The position numbers and the translations under genes are program-made. A stretch of 64,000 nucleotides of DNA from Yoonia sp. SS1-5 (GTDB taxonomy: Bacteria > Pseudomonadota > Alphaproteobacteria > Rhodobacterales > Rhodobacteraceae). The notes under the pieces were generated by a model. That model made no database searches and was not told where the DNA came from. It saw only the letters and a list, made by a program, of their open reading frames with translations. Position 1 is the stretch's first letter. Each line of letters begins with the position of its first letter. The stretch lies in NCBI RefSeq assembly GCF_038443705.2, contig NZ_CP151767.2:4068477-4132476 (forward strand), read 5' to 3'. This document shows, piece by piece, positions 41,015 to 60,342 of the stretch.

Positions 41015-41764
41015 TCAGATCGCCAGATACTGCGCGCGCAGGTTCTCGTCATCCAGAACCTCTGCCGCCGAGCCATCAAACACCACCGTTCCGGTATCCA
41101 GAATGACGGCCCTGTCCGCCAGTTTCAGTGCTGCAACCGCGTTTTGTTCAACGATGACGGTTGTGATGCCTTGGTCACGAATAATGCCCAGCGTCTTTGC
41201 GATTTCCTGAACGATGACCGGGGCCAAGCCCTCATACGGCTCATCCAGTAGCAAAACCTTGATGTCGCGGGCCAATGCGCGGGCGATTGACAACATCTGT
41301 TGCTCACCCCCTGACAGGGTGACGCCTTCTTGCTTGCGCCGCTCGCCCAGGCGCGGAAACAGGTCATAGATACGGTCCAGCGACCAGCCCTTGGGCGGGG
41401 CAATCTGGGCAAGTTGCAGATTTTCCTCGACCGTCAGGCCCGGAATGATGCGTCTATCCTCGGGGACCAGGGCGATACCGGCAGCGGCGGCCTGATGGCT
41501 GCGCATCTCGTGCAGCGGCTGATGATCCAGCCAGATTTCACCATGGGTGAGGGCCGGATCATCAAGGCGGGCAATCGTGCGCAGGGTCGATGTCTTGCCC
41601 GCACCATTGCGCCCGAGCAGGGCGAGGATTTCGCCCTCGTGGATGTTAAAGCTGATATTCTGGACGATGTAGCTTTCACCGTAATAGGCCTCGATCTCCC
41701 AGACGCTCAGATAGGCGGGATGCGTGGCCGCGTTGTTGGCGTGTTTGTTGAATGGTGCGTTCAT
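41015..41764 (-). CDS. livF: Branched-chain amino-acid-type ABC transporter ATPase LivF
   Basis: A 249-residue LivF-type ABC ATPase energising import. Walker A GRNGAGKTS, signature LSGGEQQMLSIARAL and Walker B VLLLDEPYEGLAP are intact. The last visible gene of the importer operon (order binding protein, livH, livM, livG, livF on the - strand), 66 bp after livG. An extra N-terminal stretch MNAPFNKHANNAATH precedes the domain; a later start is possible. Confidence 0.93.
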   Translation of the reverse strand: MNAPFNKHANNAATHPAYLSVWEIEAYYGESYIVQNISFNIHEGEILALLGRNGAGKTSTLRTIARLDDPALTHGEIWLDHQPLHEMRSHQAAAAGIALVPEDRRIIPGLTVEENLQLAQIAPPKGWSLDRIYDLFPRLGERRKQEGVTLSGGEQQMLSIARALARDIKVLLLDEPYEGLAPVIVQEIAKTLGIIRDQGITTVIVEQNAVAALKLADRAVILDTGTVVFDGSAAEVLDDENLRAQYLAI

Positions 41765-41830
41765 GTCGATCTCCGAATGTCAGACTTGCGATGAAAGCCT
41801 GCGGATAAATGTTGGGGCGAGTTCTGCGGG

Positions 41831-42589
41831 CTAGACCTGCGCTTCGCCAAGATAGGCTTCGCGGACTTTGGGATGGCCCTTGATGTTGTCGGGGATGTCT
41901 TCGACCAGCGGGGTGCCTTGGGCCAGAACGGTGATCCGTTCGGCCAGCGAGAAAACAACGTTCATGTCATGTTCGATGATCGCCATGGTAATCCCGCGTT
42001 TGACGCGGATTTCCTTCAACAGGTTGATCGTGTTTTCGGTATCGGCACGGGCCATACCGGCAGTTGGTTCATCAAGCAGCAACAGCCGCGGATCCTGGAC
42101 GAGGCACATCGCCATTTCCAGGCGCCGCTTGTCGCCCCGCGACATGCTTGAGGCGGTCATGTGCATCTTTTCCAGCATATTCACATCGCCAAGGATTTCC
42201 TCGGCCTGTTGCTGAATGCCCTTTTCGGCAAAGACGCTTTCGATCGCATGCATCCGGAACGACCCGTCACGCTTGGCAAAGCAGGGGATCATCACATTTT
42301 CGAACACGGTCAGGTCACCGAAGATCTCGGGTGTCTGGAACACACGACTGATGCCCATCTGGTTGATCTCATGCGGTTTGCGCCCCAGCACGGATTGCCC
42401 GTCAAACATGACAGATCCGCTATCCGGGATCAGTTTGCCCACCAGCACGTTCAGCAGGGTCGATTTGCCCGCACCGTTCGGGCCGATGATCGCATGCACT
42501 GTATTCTCGGCAACGCTGAGGTTGACGTCGCCCAGTGCCTGCAGCCCGCCGAACCGCTTGTTGATGCCTTTGACTTCAAGAATTCCCAT
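41831..42589 (-). CDS. livG: Branched-chain amino-acid-type ABC transporter ATPase LivG
   Basis: A 252-residue LivG-type ATPase with Walker A GPNGAGKST, a signature region MSRGDKRRLEMAMCL (SRGDKR in place of the usual SGGQQR) and Walker B LLLLDEPTAGM. The variant signature is notable but found in some Liv/Urt-like ATPases. It starts 11 bp after the livM stop, so it is translationally linked with it. Confidence 0.93.
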   Translation of the reverse strand: MGILEVKGINKRFGGLQALGDVNLSVAENTVHAIIGPNGAGKSTLLNVLVGKLIPDSGSVMFDGQSVLGRKPHEINQMGISRVFQTPEIFGDLTVFENVMIPCFAKRDGSFRMHAIESVFAEKGIQQQAEEILGDVNMLEKMHMTASSMSRGDKRRLEMAMCLVQDPRLLLLDEPTAGMARADTENTINLLKEIRVKRGITMAIIEHDMNVVFSLAERITVLAQGTPLVEDIPDNIKGHPKVREAYLGEAQV

Positions 42590-42600
42590 CGGTCTTCTCC

Positions 42601-43797
42601 TTATTCAGCGGGCGTTGTGGCGCCATCTTTGGCGTCTTGCGTCTTTTTGCGACGGAACATGCCAGCGATTTTCTGACCGCCCTGGACCAGACCACCGGGC
42701 AGGAAGATCACAACCAGCATGAACAGCAGGCCAAGTGTCAGGTGCCAGCCCTTGCCGACGAAGGGATAGACGATGGCGATCATCACATCCTCGATCCCGT
42801 CGGGCATCCAGTAGAACCATTGCTCTAGGGTCGATTTGTTGATCTTCGAGACGATGTTTTCGAAATATTTGATAAAGCCCGCACCCAGTACCGGCCCGAT
42901 CAGCGTGCCAGCCCCGCCGAGGATCGTCATCAGGACGATTTCGCCTGAGGCCGTCCAGAACATCCGCTCTGCACCTGCCTGTGGGTCCATCGCCACCAGC
43001 AAACCACCCGCAAGCCCGGCATACATGCCCGAGATGACAAAGGCGGCCAATGTGTAGGGTTTGGCGTTCAGGCCGGTATAGCTCATCCTTGTCTGGTTGG
43101 ATTTGATGGCCCGCAGCATCATGCCGAACGGGGACCGGAAAATCCGGATCGAGACATAGAATGCAAGGATCATCACGATGGCCGCAAAGTAGTAGCCAAA
43201 GTTGAACGTAAAGATCCAGCTGCCCATCGTCAGTTCGTAGCTGTCGCGCATTGCAAAACCAAACAGGCTGGGCGTTGCAGTCTCACCCGGGGCCAGCGCC
43301 CCATCAAGAACACGCGGGTCTGTCGCCTTTGGTTGCAGTCCGGTTTCGCCGCCTGTCAGCGGGGTCAGCACCGAATAGGCCAGCGCATAGGACATCTGCG
43401 CAAAGGCCAGTGTCAGGATCGAGAAGTAGATCCCGGACCGGCGCAGCGAGACATAGCCGATAATCAGCGAGAACAGCCCGGCAATTGCGACACTGAGCAC
43501 AATGGCGGGCAGAACATTCATGCTGAGCAGCTTGAACATCCACACCGCGGCATATGATCCGACACCCAGGAAGGCCGCGTGCCCAAATGACAGATATCCG
43601 GTCAGGCCAAACAGAATGTTGAACCCAATTGCCAGGATCCCGAAGATCACAAAGCGTTGCATCAGGTCAGGGTAGCCTGCGTTGAATTGTGCCATTTCCG
43701 AGCCTTCGGGGAAGGGATTCAGGATGAACGGCGCCAGCATGGTCAGACCGATCACAATGATCAGCAGCCTTGCGTCTTTTTTCTCAAGTCCGAACAT
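42601..43797 (-). CDS. livM: Branched-chain amino-acid-type ABC transporter permease LivM
   Basis: A 398-residue polytopic permease with about 9-10 hydrophobic segments. It has the LivM signature [21 protein letters not shown] and [23 protein letters not shown]. Its C-terminus is basic and cytoplasmic ([10 protein letters not shown]). The livM stop and livG start are 11 bp apart, and livH ends 3 bp upstream of the livM start. Confidence 0.94.
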
Positions 43798-43800
43798 GGC

Positions 43801-44832
43801 TTATTCCTCCATCACGCCTTTGCGCCCCATCAGGCCGCGTGGACGTGTCAACAGAATGATGATGGCGACTAGATAGATGATGATCTGGTTGATCCCGGGC
43901 AGCACGTTGATCACCGCAGACATCGAGGCAAAGCTTTCCAGAATGCCCAGAAGGAAGCCCGCAGCCACCGCACCGGGCAGCGAGCCCATGCCGCCCACAA
44001 CAACCACCACAAAGCTGAGCACCAGAAAATCCATGCCCATGTGATAGTTTGGCGGGTTGATAGGCACATACATCACGCCCGCCAGACCGGCCACAGCCGC
44101 CGCGATGCCAAACATGATCGTAAAGCGCTTGTCGATATCGATGCCCAGCAGCCCGACCGTTTCGCGGTCTGCCATCCCGGCCCGCACCACCATGCCGAAG
44201 GTGGTGAATTGCAAGAATGCAAAGACGGCGCCGATCACGATGAGCGAGAAGAAGAAATAGACCAGCCGCCAATATGGATAGATGATCGCGTTGGGATCAA
44301 AGCCAAAGGCGACCCCGAAATCAAAGCTGCCTGTAAAAGCCTCTGGCGCAGGTGTCGGGATCGGGTTTGCCCCGTAGAAATATTTGATCACTTCCTGCAG
44401 CACAATCGCCAGGCCAAATGTCACAAGGATCTGGTCCGCATGCGGGCGCTTGTAGAAGTGTTTGATCAGGCCCCGCTCCATGATGAAGCCGATGGCAATC
44501 ATGATCGGAATGGCCACAAGGATCGAGATCGGGACGGCCCAGTCAATGATCACATCACCGGCCGCCTGCCCGAAAAAGTCATATAGATAGGGCACATCAA
44601 CTTCGAGCGGATTGCCCAGAAAGTCAGTGCGGCTTTCATCCACAACCTTGTGGCTGATCGTCAGCACCTTGCTGACGGTGACAGACACAAACGCGCCCAT
44701 CATGAACAATGCGCCATGCGCAAAATTCACAACCCCGAGCGTGCCAAAAATCAGCGTCAGGCCAAGCGCGATCAACGCATAAGCGGATCCCTTGTCAAGG
44801 CCGTTGAGAATTTGAAGGATGATCTGATCCAT
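43801..44832 (-). CDS. livH: Branched-chain amino-acid-type ABC transporter permease LivH
   Basis: A 343-residue permease of the LivH type, with several transmembrane helices and the conserved motifs GSAYALIALGLTLIFGTLGVVNFAHGALFMMGAF and GGMGSLPGAVAAGFLLGILES. An insertion of about 40 residues (LTISHKVVDESRTDFLGNPLE...) follows the second helix. It is first of the permease/ATPase genes after the binding protein, from which it is separated by 128 bp and a strong hairpin. Confidence 0.94.
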   Translation of the reverse strand: MDQIILQILNGLDKGSAYALIALGLTLIFGTLGVVNFAHGALFMMGAFVSVTVSKVLTISHKVVDESRTDFLGNPLEVDVPYLYDFFGQAAGDVIIDWAVPISILVAIPIMIAIGFIMERGLIKHFYKRPHADQILVTFGLAIVLQEVIKYFYGANPIPTPAPEAFTGSFDFGVAFGFDPNAIIYPYWRLVYFFFSLIVIGAVFAFLQFTTFGMVVRAGMADRETVGLLGIDIDKRFTIMFGIAAAVAGLAGVMYVPINPPNYHMGMDFLVLSFVVVVVGGMGSLPGAVAAGFLLGILESFASMSAVINVLPGINQIIIYLVAIIILLTRPRGLMGRKGVMEE

Positions 44833-44927
44833 GGTCTGACCCCTGTTTACAATGACAACAAAAGCACGGGCGCTCGCGCCTTACGCGCGCGCTTGGATCG
44901 CCCCCGGTTGCCTGTAAGAAATGTGTT

Positions 44928-44952
44928 GGACCACCGCTGATTGCGGTGGTCC
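44928..44952. promoter_or_regulatory. Strong intercistronic hairpin between binding-protein gene and livH
   Basis: A perfect 10-bp stem GGACCACCGC / GCGGTGGTCC with a TGATT loop lies 8 bp after the binding-protein stop on the - strand. In the transcribed (minus) direction no U-tract follows, so it is more likely an mRNA-stabilising or attenuating structure than a full terminator. It would allow more binding protein than permease. Confidence 0.75.
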
Positions 44953-44960
44953 GTTTTTGC

Positions 44961-46307
44961 TTATGCGCCTGGGTTGCAGGCACCCAATTCGCCGCCGGCG
45001 AATTGTGGGTGATCTGGTTCATATGTGACCTGATCAACCGGTGTGACTTCGACGATTTCCAGAAGGTCGAATTCGTTTTCAGGGTTTTCTTTCCCTTTCA
45101 CGACCAGCACATCCTTAAAGCACTGGTGGTCGGCGCCGCGATACAGCGTCTTGCCGTTGCCCAGACCGTCGAACTCAAAGTCCTCCAGCGCTTCGGCCAC
45201 CGCACATGGGTTGAACGAACCCGCCCGTGTGACAGCATCCGCATAAAGCAGGGTCTGCACATAAGTCGTGTGTGCGGCCTGCGATGGTGGGAAGCCGTAT
45301 TTCGTACCAAAGGATTTCACGAATGCCTTGGAGCCTTCGTCCTGCAGCGACCAGTGCCAGTTTGTCGACCCGAAGATGCCCTTCACGTTCGCGCCGGCGC
45401 CCTTTGCCATCAGGCGAGAGTAGAGCGGCACAACAATCTCGAAGTTCTGGCCGTTTGCCTGTGCTTCGCGCAGACCGAACTGAACCGCGTTGGTCAGCGA
45501 GTTCACCATGTTCCCGCCGTAGTGGTTCAGAACCAGAACGTCTGCACCAGAGTTCAGGACCGGTGCGATATAGGATGAGAAGTCAGTCTGTGTCAGCGGT
45601 GTCTTCACAGCGTTCACAGTTTCCCAACCCAATGCTTCGGTTGATGACTTAACCGCCTCTTCGGTGGTGTAGCCCCAGTTATAGTCGGCTGTCAGGTGAT
45701 AGGCCTTCCGGTCGGTGCCGTAGTTGGCGGCCAACACAGGCGCAAGCGCTGCGCCGGACATGTAAGAGTTAAAGAAGTGACGGAACCCATTGGCCCGCTT
45801 GTCTTTACCCGTTGTGTCGTTGGAGTGGGTCAGGCCCGCCATGAAGATCACGCCCGCCTCCTGGCAGAGCGCCTGAACAGCCACGGCCACACCCGAGGAT
45901 GAACCGCCAGTGATCATGATCGCGCCGTCTTTTTCGATCATCGACCGGGCAGATGCGCGTGCAGCGTCAGATTTTGTCTGCGTGTCACCAGTGACATACT
46001 TCACTTCGCGACCAAGAATACCCGTACCGTCCAGCGCCTTGGACGAGAACGTGCCCATCATGCCGCCATCGCCGCCGCCATTGAGATGCTCGACCGCAAG
46101 CTCGTAGGCGCGCAGTTCGTCAGCACCCTCGTCCGCATATGGACCGGTCTGCGGTACGTTGAAGCCAAGGATGACCTCGCTGTCGCCAGGTGCATTGGTA
46201 AAGCCGGTATGGCCGTCAGCGCGCAGATATGTGGGCAGCGCGAGACCCGCGCTGGCAATTGCGCCTGTCTTCAGCACGCCACGACGCGAGAAATTCGATT
46301 TGGACAT
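44961..46307 (-). CDS. ABC transporter substrate-binding protein (branched-chain amino-acid type)
   Basis: A 448-residue periplasmic-binding protein of the Leu/Ile/Val type. The signal peptide begins SKSNFSRRGVLKTGAIASAG with a twin-arginine motif, so Tat export is likely. The mature protein has the two-lobe type I fold (VILGFNVPQTGPYADEGADEL; MITGGSSSGVAVAVQALCQ; THSNDTTGKDKRANGFRHF). It heads the importer operon. The ligand may be an amino acid or a related amide; the sequence does not settle it. Confidence 0.93.
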   Translation of the reverse strand: MSKSNFSRRGVLKTGAIASAGLALPTYLRADGHTGFTNAPGDSEVILGFNVPQTGPYADEGADELRAYELAVEHLNGGGDGGMMGTFSSKALDGTGILGREVKYVTGDTQTKSDAARASARSMIEKDGAIMITGGSSSGVAVAVQALCQEAGVIFMAGLTHSNDTTGKDKRANGFRHFFNSYMSGAALAPVLAANYGTDRKAYHLTADYNWGYTTEEAVKSSTEALGWETVNAVKTPLTQTDFSSYIAPVLNSGADVLVLNHYGGNMVNSLTNAVQFGLREAQANGQNFEIVVPLYSRLMAKGAGANVKGIFGSTNWHWSLQDEGSKAFVKSFGTKYGFPPSQAAHTTYVQTLLYADAVTRAGSFNPCAVAEALEDFEFDGLGNGKTLYRGADHQCFKDVLVVKGKENPENEFDLLEIVEVTPVDQVTYEPDHPQFAGGELGACNPGA

Positions 46308-46419: not shown

Positions 46420-46522
46420 GATTGAGTTTCTTTGTAAAAATATCCACGAATATTCTGTTAACTCTGTAAAACAGTTTTCTCGCGTTTGCAGAAAGCAATT
46501 GAAACTGCTGGGGGATTCTCAT

Positions 46523-47821
46523 TTGCCGTCACGTCGTTTGACCGGGGCCCGCATTCGCGAAAGACGCCTTGATCTGGGGCTGCGTCAGTCTGCCGTCGCC
46601 CAAGAGGTTGGGATATCGCCCTCCTACCTGAACCTGATCGAACATAACCGCCGCAGAATCGGCGGCAAGTTATTGCGCGATCTGGCAAATGTGTTGCGTG
46701 TTGATCCCGGGCAGTTGACCGACGGGGCCGACACCGATCTGCTTGACCGTATGCGCGCCGCTGCAAGTGCGCTGGGCGAACAGGTCGAGGTCGCCCGCGC
46801 CGAAGAATTTGCCGCCCGGTTTCCGGGGTGGAGCGCCCTTGTGGTTGAACAATCCCGCCGCCTGTCGGTGCTGGAGGACCGCGTGCGCGTTTTGACCGAC
46901 CGTCTGGCCTACGATCCGCAGCTTGCCGCGTCCTTGCACGAGGTCATATCGGCGGTCACCGCAATCCGGTCGTCCTCGTCCATCCTTGTCGGGCCGGAAA
47001 CACTGGATGCCGACTGGCAGCGTCGGTTCCACCAGAATATTCACGACGACAGCTTGCGGCTTGCCAAGAATAGCGAGGCCCTGATCGCCTATCTGGAGGC
47101 CCCAGAGCTTGAACCGGCAGGCTCCTTTACCCCCGTCGAAGAGGTCGAGGCCTATCTGTCTGCAAGACCGGATGCCTTTGCCGCCCTCGAGGCGCCGGAT
47201 CTCAATCTGAAGAAATTTGTGTCCAAATCCGGTCTGCGCGGGGCTGCCGCGCGGGCGCTGGGCCGGATTTCGGCGGTCTATCATGGTGATGCGCAAGTGC
47301 TGCCGCTGGAAACCTTTGTGCCGGCCTGTCGGGCGCTTGACTATGATCCGGCACGGCTTGCGCTGAAATTCGGGGTTGATTTTGCGGTTGTCCTGCGGCG
47401 TTTGGCGAGTTTGCAGACCGCAGATGGTCACCCGCCCATGGGGCTTGCGATCTGCGATGCGTCCGGCACGATTGCCTTTCAGAAACCATTGCCGGGGTTT
47501 GGGCTGCCACATGCGGGCGGGGCCTGTCCGCTTTGGCCGATTTTTGGGGCCATGGCCCGCCCAAGTCAGCCATTATGCGTCGATGTCGCACTGCCGGGGG
47601 CCAATGCATCCCGGTTCTTGTGCTACGCAATAGCAGAACCGGGGCCGGTCAGCCGGTTTGACGCCCCACCTGTGCTACAAAGCACGATGCTGGTTGTGCC
47701 CGACCCGCCGCCCGGTGACCTGCCCGCATTGCCTGTTGGTGTGACCTGCCGGATTTGCCCGCGCGACAATTGCAACAGCCGGCGCGAGCCCGCGATGACA
47801 GGCGTGGCGCTACAGCTTTGA
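46523..47821 (+). CDS. ScfR/RamB-type short-chain fatty acyl regulator
   Basis: A roughly 430-residue regulator with an N-terminal XRE helix-turn-helix (GARIRERRLDLGLRQSAVAQEVGISPSYLNLIEHNRR) and a long C-terminal part ending in CRICPRDNC, typical of the short-chain acyl-CoA-responsive family (RamB, ScfR, DUF2083). These regulate acetate and propionate metabolism. The start is a TTG: 46523 has GGGGGAT upstream, while 46499 gives 8 more residues. The gene precedes a receiver/kinase operon by 73 bp. Confidence 0.85.
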   Translation: MPSRRLTGARIRERRLDLGLRQSAVAQEVGISPSYLNLIEHNRRRIGGKLLRDLANVLRVDPGQLTDGADTDLLDRMRAAASALGEQVEVARAEEFAARFPGWSALVVEQSRRLSVLEDRVRVLTDRLAYDPQLAASLHEVISAVTAIRSSSSILVGPETLDADWQRRFHQNIHDDSLRLAKNSEALIAYLEAPELEPAGSFTPVEEVEAYLSARPDAFAALEAPDLNLKKFVSKSGLRGAAARALGRISAVYHGDAQVLPLETFVPACRALDYDPARLALKFGVDFAVVLRRLASLQTADGHPPMGLAICDASGTIAFQKPLPGFGLPHAGGACPLWPIFGAMARPSQPLCVDVALPGANASRFLCYAIAEPGPVSRFDAPPVLQSTMLVVPDPPPGDLPALPVGVTCRICPRDNCNSRREPAMTGVALQL

Positions 47822-47834
47822 CACAGCGCGCAAT

Positions 47835-47866
47835 TCCCCTGATAGTCTGAAAGCCGTGTCAGGGGA
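47835..47866 (+). promoter_or_regulatory. Inverted repeat TCCCCTGA...TCAGGGGA before the receiver gene
   Basis: Eight perfect pairs separated by 16 nt, between the ScfR-type gene and the receiver gene and ending 28 bp before the receiver start. It could be an operator or a leader hairpin. No T-run follows, so termination is unlikely. Confidence 0.35.
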
Positions 47867-47894
47867 GAGGCACGGCGTGTTCAGGGAGGGTAAG

Positions 47895-48263
47895 ATGGGC
47901 AGACGTGTCCTGCTGATCGAGGACGAGCCGAATATCATTGAGGCGATCAGTTTCATTTTGTCGCGTGATGGCTGGACGGTGCATACACATGAAGATGGCG
48001 AAACCGCCATGGACAAGGTGTTGGCCATGCCGCCTGCACTGATCATTCTGGATGTGATGTTACCGGGTCGCAGCGGCTTTGACATTTTGCGTGACCTGCG
48101 GGGGAATGCCGTCACACAGGCAATACCGGTGATGATGCTGACCGCCCGCGGGCAGGCGAAGGATCGTGATCTGGCATTGCGGCTGGGCGCCAACTATTTC
48201 ATGACAAAGCCGTTTTCCAACACAGAGGTGCGCGATCACGTGCGTACATTGATGGAGGCATGA
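47895..48263 (+). CDS. Stand-alone response-regulator receiver protein
   Basis: A 122-residue single-domain receiver (CheY fold). The acidic pair LIEDEP, phosphoacceptor Asp53 in ILDVMLPG, the Thr in MLTARG and the Lys in MTKPFSN are intact. No output domain is present. The ATG at 47895 has GGGAGGG upstream and is preferred to 47856. Its stop overlaps the next start by 4 bp, so it is in an operon with the small membrane protein and the hybrid kinase, its likely partner. Confidence 0.9.
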   Translation: MGRRVLLIEDEPNIIEAISFILSRDGWTVHTHEDGETAMDKVLAMPPALIILDVMLPGRSGFDILRDLRGNAVTQAIPVMMLTARGQAKDRDLALRLGANYFMTKPFSNTEVRDHVRTLMEA

Positions 48264-48526
48264 GCCGCCCGCCCAAACCGGGCTTGTTTCTGGAACAGGC
48301 CAATTACCGGCAACGCAGATTGCGGGATGCAATCAGACTGCTGCCAATCCTGGGGGCCATCCTGTTTGCGATCCCGCTGTTGTGGGAAACGGGGGTTGGC
48401 GCGCGGGCAATGATCTATGTCTTCCTGATCTGGTTCGGACTGATCGTGCTGGCGGCAGGCCTGTCCTTTTTTCTGCGCGATGATCCTGCGCAGGACGCTG
48501 GCAAGGCGGATGAATGGTCGCGCTGA
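48260..48526 (+). CDS. Small two-helix membrane protein
   Basis: An 88-residue protein with two hydrophobic helices (LLPILGAILFAIPLLW about 28-43; AMIYVFLIWFGLIVLAAGLSFFL about 50-72). The N-terminus is basic and the C-terminus acidic. Family not recognised. It overlaps the receiver gene by 4 bp and the kinase gene by 13 bp, so it belongs to this signalling operon, possibly as an accessory to the kinase. Confidence 0.75.
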   Translation: MSRPPKPGLFLEQANYRQRRLRDAIRLLPILGAILFAIPLLWETGVGARAMIYVFLIWFGLIVLAAGLSFFLRDDPAQDAGKADEWSR

Positions 48527-51183
48527 ACCTCCTGATCGTTGTGGCGCTGATTTATGTGGCGTTGCTTTTTGTGGTCGCGTTTTATGCCGAACGCCGGGCG
48601 CAGGCCGGGCGGGTCCAGTGGCTGCAATCCCCGATCGTTTATACGCTGTCGCTGAGCATTTATTGCACGGCCTGGACATTCTATGGGGCGGTCGGATACG
48701 CAGCCAGGTCGGGCTTGGAGTTCGTCACCATCTATCTGGGACCAACGCTGGTCATGGTGGGATGGTGGTGGATTTTGCGCCGGCTGGTGCGCATCGGCCG
48801 ATCACAACGGATTACGTCCATCGCGGATATGGTGTCGTCCCGGTTTGGAAAATCGACGCAGTTGGGGGTGCTGGTCACGCTGATCTGCGTTATCGCGGCC
48901 ACACCCTATATTGCCTTGCAGCTGCAATCCGTGACCTTGTCTTTCTCGGTTTTCGCCCAGCGGGACGGACAGCTATGGCAGGCGGCGGATCTGAATGCGG
49001 CCGCCGCATGGGTCGCATTTGGTCTTGCGGTTTTTACGGTCCTGTTCGGCACCCGCAATCTTGATGCCAACGAGCGGCATCATGGGATTGTCATGGCCAT
49101 CGCGGTCGAAGCGGTTGTGAAACTGATCGCCCTTGTGGCCGTGGGGGTCTTTGTGGTCTGGGGGCTGGCAGGCGGGCCAGCTGACATGATCACCCGGATC
49201 GAGGCATCCCCCATCCAGCTTTGGGATCAGCCCGGCGGGCGCTGGGCCAGCCTGATCTTTCTGTCCGCTGCCGCCTTTTTGTGCCTGCCCCGGATATTTC
49301 AGGTGCTGGTGGTCGAAAACGCGGATGAAGGGCATCTGCGCGTCGCCAGCTGGGCCTTTCCGCTTTACCTGTTCCTGATGAGCCTCTTTGTGGTGCCGAT
49401 TGCGGTGGTGGGGATGGATTTGCTGCCTGCTGGCAGTAACCCGGATTTGTTTGTTCTGACCCTGCCGCTTAGCCAGGGGCGGGATGGTTTGGCGATGCTG
49501 TCCTTTCTGGGCGGGTTTTCATCGGCCACATCCATGGTGATTGTTGCGACCATTGCACTGGCCACGATGGTGTCGAACCATATCGTTGTGCCGATCTGGC
49601 TGGCCTCGCGCAGCCAGCAGCAGGCGGTGATCTCGGGCGATGTGCGCAATGTGATCCTGCTGTCGCGCAGGCTGTCCATCGCGGGGGTTCTGGCGCTGGG
49701 GTTTGTCTATTTCCGGCTGTCCGGCGGTGGCACAGCCTTGGCTGCAATCGGTTTGGTGTCCTTTACCGGGACGGTGCAGATCCTGCCTGCGATGATTGGC
49801 GGCATATTCTGGCGCGGCGCGACCCGCATCGGGGCCGCCCTTGGGCTGGTCACCGGGTTGCTCGTCTGGTTATGGACGCTGTTTTTGCCAAGCTTCGGCC
49901 CTGATGCGGTCCTATCCGCCGGTGTGATGCAGGCGGGACCATGGGGCATTGCTTGGCTGCGCCCGCAAGCCCTGTTTGGTGTCAGCACGCTTGACCCGCT
50001 TGTACACGGGATCTTGTGGTCGATGCTTTTGAACAGCGCGATGTTTATCGCGGGGTCCTTGCTATCCTTTCCCAAGCCGCTGGAACGGCTGCAAGGGGCG
50101 CAATTTGTCAATGTGCTTGATCGGTCCACGGCCGCGCGGGCCTGGTCCGCCGCCGGGGCCGGGGCCGAGGACCTGTTGGTCATGTCGCAGCGTATTCTGG
50201 GCAGTGGCGAAGCCCAGTCGATTTTTCAGCGCGAGGCCCGAACCCAGGGCAAGGAAGGGTATTTGCCGGACGTGACCCCTGATTTTCTGGAAAGGCTGGA
50301 ACGGGAACTGGCCGGTTCCGTGGGTGCGGCAACTGCGCATGCGATGATTGGCCAGATGACCGGGGGCAACGGTCTTTTGGTCGAAGACCTGATGGCTGTG
50401 GCCGACGAGGCGGCGGAAATTCTGGAATACTCGAACCGGCTGGAGGCAAAATCAGCCGAACAGGAACGCACCGCCCGCGCCCTGCGCGAGGCCAATGCGA
50501 AACTGACGGCGCTCTCAGTGCAAAAGGACGCATTTCTCAGCCAGATCAGCCACGAACTGCGCACGCCGATGACCTCGATCCGGTCGTTTTCCGAGATATT
50601 GCGTGATGCCGATATGTCGGATGACGGGCTGGAACGCTATGCGGGGATCATCCATGACGAGGCGATCCGCCTGACCCGTTTGCTAGATGATCTGCTTGAT
50701 CTGTCCGTGCTGGAAAACGGGCAGGTCAACCTGCACCGCCAGACGGGGCGGCTTGATCAGGTGCTTGATCAGGCGGTCCGTGCTGCAGGCATTCATGACG
50801 GGGAACTGGCCATTGCTCGCGATCAAACGACCGAGAAAGTCAGCCTGACCACTGATCTTGATCGTCTGGCGCAGGTGTTCATCAACCTGATCACCAATGC
50901 GCGCAAATATTGTGATGCGACACCGCCGCAACTGACAATTTCTGTCGCTGCGCAAGATGGCGCCTATCACATTGATTTTGTTGACAACGGGGCCGGCATT
51001 GCGCTGCAAGACCAACAAGTGATCTTCGAGAAATTCTCGCGCGTGGTGGATCAGTCCAAGGCGGGCGGGGCCGGGCTGGGCCTCGCGATTTGTCGCGAAA
51101 TCATGCACCGGCTGGGCGGCGAAATCAGCTATCTTGCCGGGCAGGGCGGCACGGCGTTTCGCGTGATTGTGCCAAGGGGCTGA
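48514..51183 (+). CDS. Sensor histidine kinase fused to a sodium:solute symporter domain
   Basis: An 889-residue CbrA/CrbS-like sensor. The first ~470 residues form a multi-span sodium:solute symporter-like domain. A PAS-poor linker and coiled coil (about 610-665) follow. The kinase core has the H box SHELRTPMTSIRS (His680), the N box INLITNARKY, G1 FVDNGAGI and G2 GAGLGLAICREIM. CbrA/CrbS kinases sense or transport a small organic substrate (amino acids or acetate) to control its catabolism. A single-domain receiver lies upstream rather than an adjacent DNA-binding regulator. Confidence 0.92.
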   Translation: MVALNLLIVVALIYVALLFVVAFYAERRAQAGRVQWLQSPIVYTLSLSIYCTAWTFYGAVGYAARSGLEFVTIYLGPTLVMVGWWWILRRLVRIGRSQRITSIADMVSSRFGKSTQLGVLVTLICVIAATPYIALQLQSVTLSFSVFAQRDGQLWQAADLNAAAAWVAFGLAVFTVLFGTRNLDANERHHGIVMAIAVEAVVKLIALVAVGVFVVWGLAGGPADMITRIEASPIQLWDQPGGRWASLIFLSAAAFLCLPRIFQVLVVENADEGHLRVASWAFPLYLFLMSLFVVPIAVVGMDLLPAGSNPDLFVLTLPLSQGRDGLAMLSFLGGFSSATSMVIVATIALATMVSNHIVVPIWLASRSQQQAVISGDVRNVILLSRRLSIAGVLALGFVYFRLSGGGTALAAIGLVSFTGTVQILPAMIGGIFWRGATRIGAALGLVTGLLVWLWTLFLPSFGPDAVLSAGVMQAGPWGIAWLRPQALFGVSTLDPLVHGILWSMLLNSAMFIAGSLLSFPKPLERLQGAQFVNVLDRSTAARAWSAAGAGAEDLLVMSQRILGSGEAQSIFQREARTQGKEGYLPDVTPDFLERLERELAGSVGAATAHAMIGQMTGGNGLLVEDLMAVADEAAEILEYSNRLEAKSAEQERTARALREANAKLTALSVQKDAFLSQISHELRTPMTSIRSFSEILRDADMSDDGLERYAGIIHDEAIRLTRLLDDLLDLSVLENGQVNLHRQTGRLDQVLDQAVRAAGIHDGELAIARDQTTEKVSLTTDLDRLAQVFINLITNARKYCDATPPQLTISVAAQDGAYHIDFVDNGAGIALQDQQVIFEKFSRVVDQSKAGGAGLGLAICREIMHRLGGEISYLAGQGGTAFRVIVPRG

Positions 51184-51255
51184 GTCTGCCGCCGTTAGCA
51201 TAAACGTAACGTATCAGGTGTTAACGTCAGGGGGTGAAACACCTGTGGCGGGCGG

Positions 51256-52374
51256 ATGACCGACAGCATGCATTCAACGATTCTGCGGCGTATGACGGGC
51301 CGACAGACCGGGGAGGCGGCAGAAATGCCGTTGACCCTTTCGCGTGCCGTCCGGCTGGCCCTAACAAAAGCAGCCGATGAAACAATTGGCCTGTCGGTCA
51401 CGGTGACCGACATGGCCGAAGATGTGCGCAGCCTTGATGATTTGCTCGTCGATCTCGATGCCACGCTGATGCTTGTCGGGCTGGAACGCGACGGCAGGCT
51501 GGCCGGTTTGATGGCGCTGGATATGCAATTGCGCGCGGCTGTCGTGGAAACCCAGACTATCGGCCGTCTGATTGATGCGCCGGCTGACCAGCGTGACCCG
51601 ACCGGGACTGACAAGTCCCTCTGTGACGCCATGCTGGCCCATTTCCTCACGGCATTGCCGCACGCGACTGCAGCCACCGAATTCGACGGATGGCTTGATG
51701 GTGTGGTTCTTGGCGACAGGGTGCGCAGCAGCCGGGCCGCGGGGCTTGTTCTTGAAGATTGCGAATATCGCGTGCTGCGGTTTCCGATTGATCTGGGCGT
51801 TGCGGAGCGGACAGGCGAATTGCGCATCGCCCTGCCGATGACCGCCGGGCCCGCGACACCGGACCTGCCGCAACCTGTCAGTCAGGATTGGGTGCCGCAA
51901 TTCCGCGCCGCGGTTGAGGCGGCCCCGGCCACGCTTGAGGCAGAATTGTACCGCTTTCAGCTGCCCTTGTCGCAAGCGCGCGATCTTAAGGCCGGGCAGG
52001 TCATTCCACTTTATGGCTGCACGGTGAATTCGGTCCGGCTGCTGTCGCTTGACGGGCGCCAGGTGGCGCAGGCCAAACTGGGGCAAGTCGGTGGCAAGCG
52101 GGCCTTGCGGATCGAGGCTGCGCCTGCGGCGGAACTGTCCGAACTTGCCGCGCGCGGTGCAGACGGGGCTGCGTCAATGGCGCTGCAGGACGAGGCCGGA
52201 CCACTTGCACTGGATGCTACCCCTGTCATTGAAGGGGGCGCAGATGGGTTTGACAATGGGGCTGCGCTTGATCTGCCGATGGATGCGCCCGCCAGCGATG
52301 AGGGTGAATTGCAGGGAGAGGCGGAATTTGCCGTGGCTGCGATGGAGGATGATACGCTTCAGATCACGGAATAG
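51256..52374 (+). CDS. FliM/FliN-type C-ring domain protein
   Basis: A 372-residue protein resembling FliM: a CheC-like middle region (about 20-200) and a C-terminal SpoA/SurfacePresentationOfAntigens domain (about 220-280: YRFQLPLSQARDLKAGQVIPLYGCTVNSVRLLSLDGRQVAQAKLGQ). An acidic tail of about 80 residues follows (DAPASDEGELQGEAEFAVAAMEDDT). No other flagellar gene is near. It starts 73 bp after the kinase with GGCGGGCGG ahead. It may be a true motor-switch protein or a partner of the kinase/receiver. Confidence 0.8.
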   Translation: MTDSMHSTILRRMTGRQTGEAAEMPLTLSRAVRLALTKAADETIGLSVTVTDMAEDVRSLDDLLVDLDATLMLVGLERDGRLAGLMALDMQLRAAVVETQTIGRLIDAPADQRDPTGTDKSLCDAMLAHFLTALPHATAATEFDGWLDGVVLGDRVRSSRAAGLVLEDCEYRVLRFPIDLGVAERTGELRIALPMTAGPATPDLPQPVSQDWVPQFRAAVEAAPATLEAELYRFQLPLSQARDLKAGQVIPLYGCTVNSVRLLSLDGRQVAQAKLGQVGGKRALRIEAAPAAELSELAARGADGAASMALQDEAGPLALDATPVIEGGADGFDNGAALDLPMDAPASDEGELQGEAEFAVAAMEDDTLQITE

Positions 52375-52569: not shown

Positions 52570-53001
52570 CTAGTCCTTGCTGGTGGCAAGCGCCTCAAGC
52601 TGCGGTTTCATGCCGCCCAAAGTATAGCCTGCGGCTGTCGTGGCCGCGATGATGTCATCGGCATCCATTTCCGGCGCCATCGCCAGCGACCAGACGATTG
52701 ATGACCGGGTGCCAGAGGCGCAATAGGCCAGCGTCGGCCCTTTGGCGGCCGCGATAGCAGCGTGCTGGGCTGCGACCATATCCATGTTCAGACCCTGATG
52801 TGTAACCGGGTTCAGCACAAATTCCAGCCCGGCCTCTGTCGCGGCCGTCTGGATTGCCGCCGCGTGATGTGATGGCGGGATCTCGGCATCGGGCCTGTTG
52901 CAGATGATGCAGGTAAACCCGGCCTCTACGATCGCGGGAATATGTTCGACCCCGATCTGGGGCGAGACGGCATAGTCGGGGCTAATCTGTCTGATATCCA
53001 T
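52570..53001 (-). CDS. TIGR01244-type rhodanese/phosphatase-like protein (DUF442)
   Basis: A 143-residue protein of the TIGR01244/DUF442 family with a CX5R-like loop (YCASGTRS). In several proteobacteria this domain is fused to a persulfide dioxygenase (the blh protein of the BigR operon); here it is separate. It is probably a sulfurtransferase or phosphatase-like enzyme in persulfide handling. It is last on the - strand of the sulfide regulon and is 9 bp downstream of the sulfur-permease genes. Confidence 0.88.
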   Translation of the reverse strand: MDIRQISPDYAVSPQIGVEHIPAIVEAGFTCIICNRPDAEIPPSHHAAAIQTAATEAGLEFVLNPVTHQGLNMDMVAAQHAAIAAAKGPTLAYCASGTRSSIVWSLAMAPEMDADDIIAATTAAGYTLGGMKPQLEALATSKD

Positions 53002-53010
53002 GGCCGCGTT

Positions 53011-53442
53011 CTAGACCGGGCTTGGGCGCGGGTCCAGTCTGCTTCGCAACGGTGGGGCAATCATCATGCCACATAACATCGCGATCAGGAATGCGACGCC
53101 CCCCGTCCCGCCAAAACCAAGCGATGCAATAGCAGGCCCGGGGCAGAGCCCCGACAGGCCCCAGCCCGCGCCAAAAAGGGTGGAGCCCAGAACAAGGTTC
53201 GGTCCGACGCGCGGATCAGGTCGGGCCGGAAAGGCATCGGCCAGAACAGGTCTGCGCCCTTTGGTCCAGGCCCATGCAAGGGCCATGGGCAGGATGGCTC
53301 CGCCCATCACAAAGGCAAGCGTCGGGTCCCAATCGCCAAAAAGATCAAGCCAGCCTTGCACCTTGGTCGTGTCAGTCATCCCCGAAATAAGCAGACCCGT
53401 GCCAAAAAGACTGCCGACAACAAATGCAACAAATATCCGCAT
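53011..53442 (-). CDS. YeeE/YedE-type sulfur permease, C-terminal half (DUF6691)
   Basis: A 143-residue membrane protein with the conserved GWGLSGLCPGPAIASLGFG and hydrophobic helices starting MRIFVAFVVGSLFGTGLLISGM. In the E. coli YeeE family, such cysteine- and glycine-rich segments carry thiosulfate or sulfur equivalents. Its start overlaps the stop of the upstream half (TGATG), so the two short proteins replace one fused permease. Confidence 0.88.
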   Translation of the reverse strand: MRIFVAFVVGSLFGTGLLISGMTDTTKVQGWLDLFGDWDPTLAFVMGGAILPMALAWAWTKGRRPVLADAFPARPDPRVGPNLVLGSTLFGAGWGLSGLCPGPAIASLGFGGTGGVAFLIAMLCGMMIAPPLRSRLDPRPSPV

Positions 53443-53867
53443 CAGATGATCCCCAGACCATGTTTGAACACAACAACCGTCAGCGCACCGGCCCCGATGT
53501 AAAAGACCGTGGCAACAATGCCGCGCAGTGACAGCCGCGAAATGCCGCAAACCCCATGCCCCGACGTGCAGCCATTGGCCAGCCGTGTACCAACGCCAAC
53601 CAGCAGGCCTGCGATGATGATCACGCCCCAATTGTTGGTCAGGTGGGTTTGCGCCCCGGCCATAAATGGCACCAGCAGGGCAGGGGCCAGAAACAGCCCC
53701 GCCAGCAGTGCGGCGCGTTCGCGCCAATCGTGACGGCCCGATCCATCCACCAGCCCGCCGATCAGGCCAGAAGCCCCCATGATCCGCCCGTTGACCAGCA
53801 GAAAGATCGCCGCAGCCACCCCGATAAGCCCGCCACCGGCGAGGCCCATTATCCATTCATATGGCAT
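53442..53867 (-). CDS. YeeE/YedE-type sulfur permease, N-terminal half
   Basis: A 141-residue membrane protein with the family motif NGCTSGHGVCGISRLSLRG and helices MGLAGGGLIGVAAAIFLL and ATVFYIGAGALTVVVF. With the next gene it should form a bipartite sulfur-compound transporter. It starts 24 bp after the persulfide dioxygenase gene and shares the SqrR-type promoter. Confidence 0.9.
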   Translation of the reverse strand: MPYEWIMGLAGGGLIGVAAAIFLLVNGRIMGASGLIGGLVDGSGRHDWRERAALLAGLFLAPALLVPFMAGAQTHLTNNWGVIIIAGLLVGVGTRLANGCTSGHGVCGISRLSLRGIVATVFYIGAGALTVVVFKHGLGII

Positions 53868-53891
53868 GATTAGTCCTGTTTTATTGTGCCT

Positions 53892-54755
53892 TTACAGCGT
53901 GTTGATCGGCACCTTGAAATAGCGCGTGCCATTGTCATCAGGCTCTGGGAAATGCCCGGCCCGCATGTTTGTCTGCAACGATGGCAGGATCAGCCGAGGC
54001 ATCCCCAATTTGGCGTCGCGGTTTGTGCGCATTTCGACAAAGTCGGCCAGGGGTCGCCCCGCCCCGATATGCACATTCAGCGCCTTTTGTTCGCCCACGG
54101 TTGTTTCCCACGCAAATTCGTCGCGACCGGGGGCCTTGTAGTCGTGCCCCACAAAAATCCGTGTTTCATCCGGCAGGGTCAGGATTTTCTGTATGGATTG
54201 GTAGAGGTCCTCGGCCGAGCCGCCCGGAAAATCACATCGGGCGGTGCCAAAATCCGGCATGAACAGCGTATCCCCCACAAAGGCCGCATCGCCGATCACG
54301 TAGGTCAGACAGGCTGGCGTATGGCCAGGCGTATGCAGAACATCGGCGCGCATCTGCCCGATATGCAGGCTGTCCCCATCCTCAAACAAGCCGTCAAATT
54401 GCGACCCGTCCCGCTGAAATGCGGTGCCTTCGTTGAAGACCTTGCCGAATGTGTCCTGCACAACGGTGATATTGGCCCCGATCCCGATCTTGCCGCCCAA
54501 ATGGTCTTGCAAATAGGGCGCTGCAGACAGGTGGTCCGCATGGACATGGCTTTCCAGAATCCAGCTGACCTGCAAATCGTGGTCTTTGATCCATTGGATG
54601 ATGTCATCGGCGGATTTGGTATCGGTGCGCCCGGCGGCCTGATCATAGTCCAGCACGCTGTCGATGATGGCGCAGCTGCGCCCGTCGGGTTCGCGCACCA
54701 CATAGGATACGGTGTTGGTTGCTTCATCGAAAAAGGCTTTGACTTCGGGTGACAT
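53892..54755 (-). CDS. Persulfide dioxygenase-type metallo-beta-lactamase protein
   Basis: An ETHE1-like non-heme iron dioxygenase of 287 residues that oxidises glutathione persulfide. The metal-binding ESHVHADHLSAAPYL (HxHxDH), THTPGHTPACLTY (His) and FVGDTLFMPDFGTARCDFPGG (Asp) are present. The start at 54755 (MSPEVKAFF) is preferred because the upstream extension has no family match and overlaps the operator. It is the first gene of the - regulon controlled by the divergent SqrR-like repressor. Confidence 0.92.
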   Translation of the reverse strand: MSPEVKAFFDEATNTVSYVVREPDGRSCAIIDSVLDYDQAAGRTDTKSADDIIQWIKDHDLQVSWILESHVHADHLSAAPYLQDHLGGKIGIGANITVVQDTFGKVFNEGTAFQRDGSQFDGLFEDGDSLHIGQMRADVLHTPGHTPACLTYVIGDAAFVGDTLFMPDFGTARCDFPGGSAEDLYQSIQKILTLPDETRIFVGHDYKAPGRDEFAWETTVGEQKALNVHIGAGRPLADFVEMRTNRDAKLGMPRLILPSLQTNMRAGHFPEPDDNGTRYFKVPINTL

Positions 54756-54792
54756 GACGAATCTCCTCTGCTGGACACGATAATCGCTTTTC

Positions 54793-54818
54793 AATACATT
54801 TCAATAATGGAATGTATT
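54793..54818. promoter_or_regulatory. Candidate SqrR/BigR operator
   Basis: AT-rich inverted repeat AATACATT...AATGTATT separated by 10 bp, in the 80-bp gap between the persulfide dioxygenase gene and the SqrR-like gene. SqrR/BigR repressors bind similar AT-rich palindromes at divergent promoters. The right arm covers an in-frame ATG at 54812, so the real translation start is likely further on. Confidence 0.7.
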
Positions 54819-54835
54819 TGCACAAGGACCTGCCC

Positions 54836-55147
54836 GTGACTGCGTTATCAACATTGGATGCAATGGATGCCGCCGCCGAGGATGCGGCGTCCTTGATGAA
54901 GGCTTTGTCGAACCCGGGCCGTTTGCGCATTTTATGCGCGCTTGTGCCGGGGGAAATGTCGGTATCGGGGTTGGAACAGGCATTGGGCGCCAGCCAGTCC
55001 TACGTGTCCGGTCAGCTGTTGCGCTTGCGCAATGATGGGCTGGTCACTTGTGAACGGCAGGGGCGGGTTCAGAAATACCGGCTGGCTGATCCGCGTGTGC
55101 GCCCAGTGCTGGAGCGGATTTACGAGGTATTCTGCCCCGACATGTAG
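54836..55147 (+). CDS. sqrR: SqrR/BigR-type sulfide-responsive ArsR repressor
   Basis: A 103-residue ArsR-family repressor. Cys34 (RILCALVPGEMSV) and Cys100 (YEVFCPDM) are 66 residues apart, the same spacing as Cys41 and Cys107 of Rhodobacter SqrR, which form a tetrasulfide on sulfide stress. A third Cys (72) is extra. GTG at 54836, with AAGGA 7 bp upstream, is chosen over ATG 54812, which lies within the putative operator. Divergent genes are persulfide-detoxifying, which fits. The 3' end overlaps the acyl-CoA dehydrogenase gene by 28 bp. Confidence 0.9.
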   Translation: MTALSTLDAMDAAAEDAASLMKALSNPGRLRILCALVPGEMSVSGLEQALGASQSYVSGQLLRLRNDGLVTCERQGRVQKYRLADPRVRPVLERIYEVFCPDM

Positions 55148-60281: not shown

Positions 60282-60342
60282 TTAAGTAATTTAACACGTA
60301 AGAAAAAATGACTGCGAATTGCCCGCATCGAGGAGTTACCAA

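Follow-up and report, generated by a model that had tools for sequence, protein, structure and literature searches.

In the Rhodobacteraceae, a two-component route probably ends on a DNA-binding protein in which a histidine domain takes the place of the usual receiver. By profile comparison and structure model, the regulator has taken in a kinase-like docking piece, a DHp domain that keeps its histidine and has no detected ATPase domain. As the regulator carries this kinase docking domain, the lone receiver encoded beside it probably talks directly to the regulator and not to the flagellar motor. The earlier note had listed the neighbouring regulator as one of two possible destinations of the signal; because of the DHp domain, it is now the best supported one.

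The window, i.e., the whole stretch of DNA analysed, comprises 64,000 nt of Yoonia sp. SS1-5 (NZ_CP151767.2, positions 4,068,477 to 4,132,476), and all coordinates below are counted within it (Table 1). At 46523-52374, genes for the regulator, the lone receiver, a two-helix protein, the kinase, and a FliM/FliN-type protein lie on the + strand. Such a tight order of five genes had been claimed before; all five are present, and most relatives have the same order. The two-helix gene overlaps the receiver gene by 4 nt and is itself overlapped by the kinase gene by 13 nt, and the FliM/FliN-type gene starts 72 nt 3' of the kinase gene. In 97 of 103 loci, the distance from the receiver stop to the earliest small-ORF start is at most 4 nt. 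From the small-gene stop to the aligned kinase start, it is at most 10 nt, or the genes overlap, in 98/103.

Table 1 Features of the locus and of its surroundings, with positions in the window
Feature	Position	Strand	Basis
Transcription regulator, HTH - DHp (HisKA-like) - truncated ScfR	46523..47821	+	Pfam HTH_3, ScfRs; model
HTH DNA-binding domain of the regulator, aa 11-64	46553..46714	+	
DHp/HisKA-like helical hairpin of the regulator, aa 132-192	46916..47098	+	profile match, model
Phospho-acceptor-type histidine of the regulator, aa 139	46937..46939	+	conservation
ScfR part of the regulator: DIII remnant, GAF-like domain, C-terminal cysteine motif (C335, C409, C412, C417)	47126..47818	+	
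Lone receiver (single-domain response regulator)	47895..48263	+	PF00072
Small membrane protein with two helices; its gene is coupled to that of the kinase	48260..48526	+	
SSS/SLC5-type symporter-domain histidine kinase, 889 aa, phospho-acceptor H680	48514..51183	+	HisKA, HATPase, 10ed_A
Probable FliM-type flagellar switch protein	51256..52374	+	FliM fold; distribution
Divergent ABC transporter operon, urea/branched-chain amino acid type	41015..46307	-	
Conserved promoter element TTTCTGC-N10-AAA-N4-TTTACA, between regulator and ABC operon	46456..46499	-	

Of 120 genomes sampled from the Rhodobacteraceae, 107 carry the kinase. Regulator, receiver, two-helix protein, and kinase are together in 100 of the 106 other kinase-bearing genomes, so that the proposed signalling module holds as a conserved unit of four genes. 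Taken singly, the receiver is present in all 106, the two-helix protein in 103, and the regulator at the locus in 101. Rare adjacency of the five genes in relatives had been named beforehand as the refutation of the module idea. We found the opposite, since all five, including the FliM-like gene, co-occur in 81/106 genomes. Outside the family, the four-gene unit, with the kinase downstream and no FliM, recurs at 27 of 38 loci, which belong to 20 further family codes within the class.

Regulator: With the assumed TTG start at 46523, the regulator has 432 aa; the ORF is also open from a TTG at 46499. HTH_3 (E 1.3e-11) and ScfRs (PF09856, E 1.4e-11, 45 bits versus a Pfam cut-off of 24) match the window protein, and both domains matched in 47/47 family regulators (E 0.05). 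To this extent the earlier label "ScfR-type regulator" stands; owing to its DHp/HisKA domain, the protein is not an ordinary ScfR, and the one ordinary ScfR of the same genome that we aligned has no DHp insert. RamB identity (NF038139) is not reached by the window regulator (115.5 bits versus the equivalog cut-off of 700).

DHp hairpin: The hairpin sits between the HTH and the ScfR part, where the model (pLDDT 86) has two helices, 132-156 and 163-192. In a profile comparison, it matched the DHp of the locus' own kinase with a probability of 95.2 (E 7e-9, score 47.7). Controls were 60 column shuffles, which reached a maximum score of 9.1, and other regions of both proteins. In the class, a search with the middle region of the regulator gave 46 further matches, in frames of 894-1153 aa; the 42 that were checked are all the kinase's own DHp (26/26 in the kinase frame at fetched loci, 16 directly behind kinase matches; at most 9 candidates scored per genome). 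PF00512 (cut-off 26.9) is not listed for the window regulator by itself and matches 2 of 47 family regulators at E 0.05. It is above the Pfam cut-off in 5/10 of the outside-family regulators tested and is precomputed for 117 of the best 120 of 4157 regulator homologues (query included). A weak NCBIfam kinase match was also obtained. Foldseek and VIA-align searches with the whole regulator model, which barely probe the hairpin, gave no kinase DHp chain among the 50 matches listed for each. No HATPase family matched among 47 family and 10 outside regulators. In the open-licence literature, as far as its text was accessible, we found no description of a HisKA-containing ScfR protein or of such two-component wiring.

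H139: The phospho-acceptor histidine is kept in 100/102 family rows, 80/80 named loci, and 33/38 outside loci, that is, in 213/220 rows, although some named loci share a species with family rows. In two regulators of the family (L052, L140), both linked to a kinase, Tyr takes its place. Outside the family, the histidine was lost in 0/27 kinase-linked versus 5/11 unlinked loci (Fisher p 9e-4); the five losses include two congeneric pairs and hence represent about three events. Pro at H+5 is present in 103/103 kinases and in 0/220 regulator rows. Glu at H+1 is kept in just 4 of 38 outside-family regulators; thus, the usual phosphatase chemistry is unlikely there.

These residues bear on how the receiver would act. 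The receiver may dock on the DHp of the regulator allosterically, with no phosphoryl transfer to H139. This version of direct contact, nested in the preferred explanation, is favoured by the lack of Pro at H+5 and often of Glu at H+1, by the five outside regulators that persist without the histidine, and by the two family members with Tyr. Against it, the histidine is conserved in more rows than docking alone needs, and its losses outside the family coincide with lost kinase linkage. We regard it as rather unlikely, yet as the strongest of the alternatives.

ScfR part: The [4Fe-4S] ligands C335, C409, C412, and C417, one GAF-like Cys plus C-X2-C-X4-C, are invariant in 47 family rows. Compared with the outside relatives shown, which have a complete pocket, the family regulators shown miss about 80 residues from the CoA-pocket (DIII) half. 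The CoA contacts of PrpR include K217, F240, and H319 (PMC6765138). By our own mapping, the missing residues would hold K217 and F240, and H319 is replaced by Arg292. Read from the alignment, the Rhodobacteraceae regulators have thus lost most of the CoA pocket and kept the [4Fe-4S] cysteines. Because of this loss, the description "acyl-responsive", given to the regulator in the earlier note, is doubtful for the family. A variant compatible with the preferred explanation is that the family ScfR part still senses acyl-CoA and that the protein receives a further input through its DHp. The invariant cysteines speak for acyl-CoA sensing, as do the outside relatives, in which HTH and DHp occur together with an M78/ScfR part that is complete and has the CHRL histidine, but the lost PrpR contacts make it unlikely in the family.

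It is still less probable that the DHp is a vestigial dimerisation hairpin and that the regulator works independently of the two-component proteins, which would have another output. In its favour, seven genomes of the class have regulator and kinase without direct linkage; the conserved histidine, the conserved linkage, and the kinship with that very kinase argue against it. Two further observations count against the preferred explanation. Nine class genomes with a kinase match gave no regulator match in the class search. In three family genomes (G004, G023, and G101), the locus has receiver and kinase but no regulator, and their receiver may act on a different partner. A genome search in the latter two gave a regulator-type match elsewhere in G101 and none in G023.

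FliM-like protein: Like flagellar FliM, this protein has a middle CheC-like domain and a C-terminal SpoA domain, both covered by Foldseek matches to FliM chains (E 1.1e-15). Unlike flagellar FliM, it is encoded away from the flagellar cluster and scores below the FliM family cut-offs (TIGR01397, 30.7 bits against 219.6); PF02154 matched in 1/53 FliM-like proteins (E 0.033). In 69 genomes with FliG, the gene at this locus is the sole FliM candidate, and 11 more have further FliM/FliN domains. Hence, the protein is most simply explained, and most likely, as the flagellar FliM itself. A CheC/FliY-type receiver phosphatase was considered and rejected, as FliY and CheC fold matches rank below FliM.

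FliM is known to bind a receiver, CheY. The gene is close to the kinase gene and is syntenic in 82 of the 100 other kinase-bearing family genomes with enough sequence. Nevertheless, a receiver acting on FliM to link nutrients to motility is very improbable and was rejected: none of the 38 stretches outside the family has a FliM-type match, five of the six kinase-bearing genomes without detected FliG or FliM/FliN domain retain all four genes of the unit, and 12 genomes with FliG keep the receiver without a FliM at this locus. The FliM-like protein is thus probably a mere neighbour, and neither its membership in the module nor a C-ring protein with motility as output, both suggested earlier, finds support.

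Receiver: The start is most likely ATG 47895. PF00072 matches with E 1.4e-24, and D53 and K105 are invariant in 16 aligned rows.

Two-helix protein: No Pfam or NCBIfam family was found above cut-off. The small two-helix gene cbrX overlaps cbrA (PMC6591292), and the gene pair here has the same arrangement. The small gene is probably a coupled accessory like cbrX.

Kinase: The window kinase has HisKA at 671-736 and HATPase at 781-888. PF00474 gave no match, but residues 4-462 match the solved structure 10ed_A, an N-terminal chain labelled "histidine kinase" (E 2e-68). Among 26 kinases examined, HisKA and HATPase are found in all and PF00474 in just one. No receiver family, as expected in a hybrid kinase, matched in the window kinase or in these 26.

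On the preferred reading of direct contact with the regulator, the symporter-type membrane kinase would phosphorylate the lone receiver (kinase His to receiver Asp). The analogy with CrbS and RpuS suggests that a small carbon acid may be the stimulus. The receiver would then dock on the DHp hairpin of the HTH-DHp-ScfR regulator as on the kinase's own DHp, and the phosphoryl group is perhaps passed on to H139. Docking would change the activity of the regulator at a promoter that the regulator operon shares with the divergent ABC operon.

Divergent operon: The ABC operon encodes a binding protein, two permeases, and two ATPases and is a likely, putative target of the regulator. The binding protein, whose nearest solved chains are of amino-acid and urea type, is encoded near the unit in 78/106 other kinase-bearing family genomes, and outside the family divergently within 700 bp in 32/38 loci. 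Beyond the ABC operon, the neighbouring genes outside the family (6 proteins, 4 loci) have no common theme.

Promoter element: In 71 family intergenic regions, dyad counts reach 42, whereas none of three Markov samplings exceeded 14; 8 loci were left out because their ORF calls overlap, and the refined matrix was trained on those same sequences. Family and outside loci have TTTACAAA of the element in common. Its half CTGC-N3-GCA resembles the PhaR consensus TGCRNYGCASMA (PMC6201568); therefore, the element cannot be assigned to the regulator. In the Yoonia genome, the window site has 0 mismatches, the sole site with 2 mismatches is upstream of ccr, and 20 sites have 3. As these 22 sites compare with 23 in the backward control, the 3-mismatch sites are noise. 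Of 77 chosen genomes, 71 have ccr, and in four of them (G000, G034, G049, and G117) a site with at most 2 mismatches lies 86-121 bp upstream in the same orientation; 67/71 have no such site. From the hit density (126 hits; 122 on recount), about 0.007 ccr sites within 250 bp are expected versus the 4 observed. The comparison with genomes lacking the kinase or its locus regulator (4/59 versus 0/12) is not significant. For most of these 12, the lack of a regulator refers to the kinase locus, and in G116 there is a 0-mismatch site on a different contig. An element common to the unit and the crotonyl-CoA carboxylase/reductase promoter in four genera is thus a lead only.

A more far-reaching proposal is that a His-Asp-His phosphorelay ends in the DNA-binding protein, that a dual input of acyl-CoA and phosphoryl group is ancestral in many alphaproteobacterial families, and that the Rhodobacteraceae dropped the acyl-CoA half and set carbon assimilation with the remainder, possibly including crotonyl-CoA carboxylase/reductase. 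We advance it tentatively, at somewhat less than an even chance.

Spo0B and ChpT are DHp phosphotransferases with a DHp fold, no kinase activity, and a receiver partner. The regulator would resemble them in its DHp without kinase activity (no ATPase domain found) and its proposed receiver partner, but here the DHp is within a DNA-binding protein. With the ScfR/IsaR regulators PrpR, RamB, and PccR, it has in common the HTH, the GAF-like domain, and C-X2-C-X4-C plus one more cysteine; it differs by the added DHp with a phospho-acceptor histidine and, in the family, by the lack of most of the CoA-binding DIII half. The kinase is built like the SLC5/STAC histidine kinases CrbS, CbrA, and RpuS, i.e., a symporter-type sensor fused to HisKA and HATPase. 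CrbS, however, is a hybrid kinase with its own receiver and the LuxR-type partner CrbR, whereas here the kinase has none and a lone receiver gene adjoins. Unlike in CrbR, CbrB, and RpuR, this receiver is unfused, and DNA binding falls to a separate protein that itself contains a histidine domain. Pden_1785 of Paracoccus denitrificans is probably an orthologue; the accessible text of PMC10370305 names it without domain or function.

Many bacteria have lone receivers, often with outputs that are not known; in this case, the genome sequence is enough to read off a partner. If true, this would be a new two-component wiring, in which the effector borrows the docking domain of a kinase and not the receiver of a regulator. 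In P. denitrificans, "a yet unknown signal" lowers the ethylmalonyl-CoA pathway (PMC10370305), and the unit may bear on the control of acetyl-CoA assimilation. With the kinase in 107/120 family genomes and the unit in other families, it provides a route, open to experiment, by which an external signal would reach a transcription factor belonging to the acyl-CoA regulators.

All five plus-strand genes described in the earlier note are present in the order regulator, lone receiver, small two-helix protein, symporter-type (SSS/SLC5) kinase and FliM/FliN-type protein, in a genome of 4.47 Mb on two contigs. The closest regulators among named relatives come mostly from Yoonia. The N-terminal part of the kinase was matched in 107 of 120 Rhodobacteraceae genomes, in single copy each (in two pieces in 2 of the 107). 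In genome G013 (locus L142) the kinase lies in two frames, possibly a broken gene or a sequencing error. The surroundings were fetched for the other 106 genomes, giving 107 loci as one genome was split over two contigs, and were searched with the proteins of the window. The receiver was present in 106/106 of these genomes, the small protein in 103, the regulator in 101 (the apparent regulator of locus L085, being the kinase itself, was removed from this count) and the complete four-gene unit in 100. The FliM-type gene was found in 82 of the 106 (82 of the 100 with at least 1.5 kb of sequence behind the kinase), and a gene for the ABC binding protein lay near in 78. The five-gene adjacency, which the earlier note had wished to see checked across relatives, holds in 81/106 genomes. 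We also examined 80 named loci, with species partly shared with the family set; where evaluable, they gave 78/79 for the receiver, 78/79 for the small protein, 76/77 for the kinase, 66/75 for FliM and 63/75 for the ABC binding protein. In a draw of 196 genomes from the order, all listed under the same family code, the middle region of the regulator was matched in 191, in genome G603 at the kinase level only. The genes downstream of the five are probably concerned with sulfide handling and recur in relatives (DUF442 in 68/107 loci, metallo-beta-lactamase in 41/107).

Features of the locus and related sites (window coordinates unless a contig or locus is named)
Feature	Coordinates	Strand	Remark
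ABC transporter operon, urea/branched-chain amino acid type	41015-46307	-	divergent from regulator
Conserved element	46456-46499		regulator-ABC intergenic region
Regulator, lone receiver, two-helix protein, kinase, FliM/FliN-type protein	46523-52374	+	in that order
FliM-type gene	51256-52374	+
DUF442-type, two YeeE-type, metallo-beta-lactamase, ArsR-type genes	52570-55147		names by eye
Long open frame	60319-63999		repeated SdrD-B-like Asp-rich segments (by eye); runs off window end
Element-like site	L203:1207-1236 = own genome C2:3586406-3586435		about 107 bp upstream of ccr
Type III secretion locus, own genome	L034:631-3192		SctQ-type, SctR, SctT-like frame (by eye); besides flagellar genes
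Element copy, 0 mismatches	G116:C31:66828-66857		genome G116

We are almost certain that the regulator contains a DHp domain. Its stretch LHEVISAVTAIRS...IHDDSLRLA resembles SHELRTPMTSIRS...IHDEAIRLT of the kinase, and NCBIfam gives a weak kinase match there (CreC, E 0.003). With the regulator as query, phmmer matched 26/107 kinase frames at E 1e-3. Profile-profile comparison of residues 123-203 with the kinase DHp gave a probability of 95.2, E 7e-9 and a score of 47.7; 60 column-shuffled versions scored at most 9.1, and control windows of both proteins stayed below 8, save those overlapping the two domains. In the regulator model (47 rows, pLDDT 86), helices span 101-130, 132-156 and 163-192; the last two form a hairpin, and His139 sits close to the beginning of helix 132-156. 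The histidine is kept in 100/102 aligned family rows, with Tyr in two. A HATPase family is listed for none of the 47 family regulators or the 10 from outside. Pro at H+5 occurs in 103/103 kinases and in 0/220 regulator rows (102 family, 38 outside, 80 named loci).

A profile built on the middle region of the regulator was searched against 385 alphaproteobacterial genomes and matched 52 at E 1e-6: 5 of the Rhodobacteraceae, 38 regulator-type elsewhere (20 other family codes) and 9 kinase-type only. The same search hit 46 further places in frames of 894-1153 aa, a ranking among the at most nine candidates scored per genome. Our kinase check covered 42 of these, the other four being family places. 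All 26 inside fetched loci fall within the symporter-type kinase frame, and the other 16 lie directly behind independently found kinase places (7 in genomes with regulator and kinase not directly linked, 9 in kinase-match-only genomes). The regulator DHp either descends from the family of this kinase or is constrained to fit the same receiver.

All 38 outside loci were fetched, some stretches ending early at contig ends. Downstream on the same strand lie the receiver (28/38), the small protein (27/38) and the kinase (27/38); the ABC binding protein is in the stretch at 33/38, divergent within 700 bp in 32/38, and FliM is in 0/38. The outside regulators inspected are longer than the family ones and combine HTH and DHp with a complete M78-like plus ScfR part. 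The HTH-DHp-ScfR architecture is visible in domain tables, since 5/10 outside regulators tested pass the Pfam HisKA cut-off and 117 of the best 120 of 4157 homologues have a PF00512 annotation; no account of it was found in the literature searched.

The N-terminal part of the kinase matches the solved chain 10ed_A, named histidine kinase, and the Pfam SSF model matches just 1/26 kinases. Related kinases are linked to acetate use (CrbS), a pyruvate symporter (RpuS) or carbon state (CbrA) (PMC9100948, PMC6591292, PMC5436829). The small gene overlaps or abuts the kinase gene in 98/103 loci, like P. putida cbrX, a 58-residue two-helix ORF overlapping cbrA by 17 nt; cbrA translation requires that of cbrX, whose sequence is of little importance (PMC6591292). 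Here a few residues, R17, P29, P39 and W58, show no variation across 21 rows, so the product may act as a protein too.

The FliM-type protein has a full FliM fold and is probably the flagellar FliM of the family; its gene lies apart from the flagellar cluster, and it scores below the usual FliM cut-offs. Three FliM/FliN-domain proteins occur in the own genome: this one, FliN beside fliP and an SctQ-type protein beside sctR, the latter two named with scores below their equivalog cut-offs. FliG and the syntenic gene occur together in 80 of 100 evaluable relatives; 69 of the 80 have at most two FliM/FliN domains in total (11 have more), and the syntenic gene is therefore their only FliM candidate. 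It tracks FliG (FliG+ 80 with, 12 without; FliG- 2 with, 6 without; Fisher p 3.5e-4). The four-gene unit is kept in 5/6 kinase-bearing genomes with no detected FliG or FliM/FliN domain (G019, G029, G057, G072, G109), and the regulator was not found in the sixth, G102; such absences may partly reflect genome gaps. In a study of the fla1 flagellum, fliG is encoded outside the cluster and a term search of the main text finds 'FliM' only within a reference title (PMC11974857), so this gene may be the missing fliM.

The TTTACAAA box of the intergenic element is shared by family and outside loci; in the latter, a second ACAA stands 32 bp away, in agreement with the layout reported for ScfR sites, two boxes separated by 18 bp (PMC10370305). 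One half of the element is similar to a PhaR site (PMC6201568). The only other place in the own genome with at most two mismatches is upstream of the crotonyl-CoA carboxylase/reductase gene ccr (TIGR01751). Placement is similar in three further genera (G034, G049, G117), which makes an element shared with the ccr promoter a lead. In G116 a copy lies on another contig and the kinase locus lacks the regulator, which may have been relocated to that contig together with the ABC genes.

On the sequences, the simplest reading is that the lone receiver, which has no output domain, would engage the DHp of the neighbouring regulator as its output. Contact between the two appears likely, and phosphoryl transfer to His139 is a tentative further step. 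In P. denitrificans, Pden_1785, a gene of the ScfR network, was noted to sit in a cluster with a two-component system; that study continued with three others (PMC10370305). Outside the family, the histidine is kept in 33/38 regulators and replaced by Gln (2), Phe (2) or Tyr (1). Losses number 0/27 at loci with the kinase directly downstream versus 5/11 without (Fisher p 9e-4), the five including two congeneric pairs and thus about three events. The two family regulators with Tyr (L052, L140) do have a linked kinase, which argues against a strict rule tying histidine loss to lost linkage. The His-less outside regulators (L191, L192, L200, L201, L202), all apart from the kinase, are a natural test of the role of the histidine. 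In some outside families (L194-L199) the H box of the regulator has stayed close to canonical (L196 and L199 read HELRT); these regulators are the best material for a structural or phosphotransfer study.
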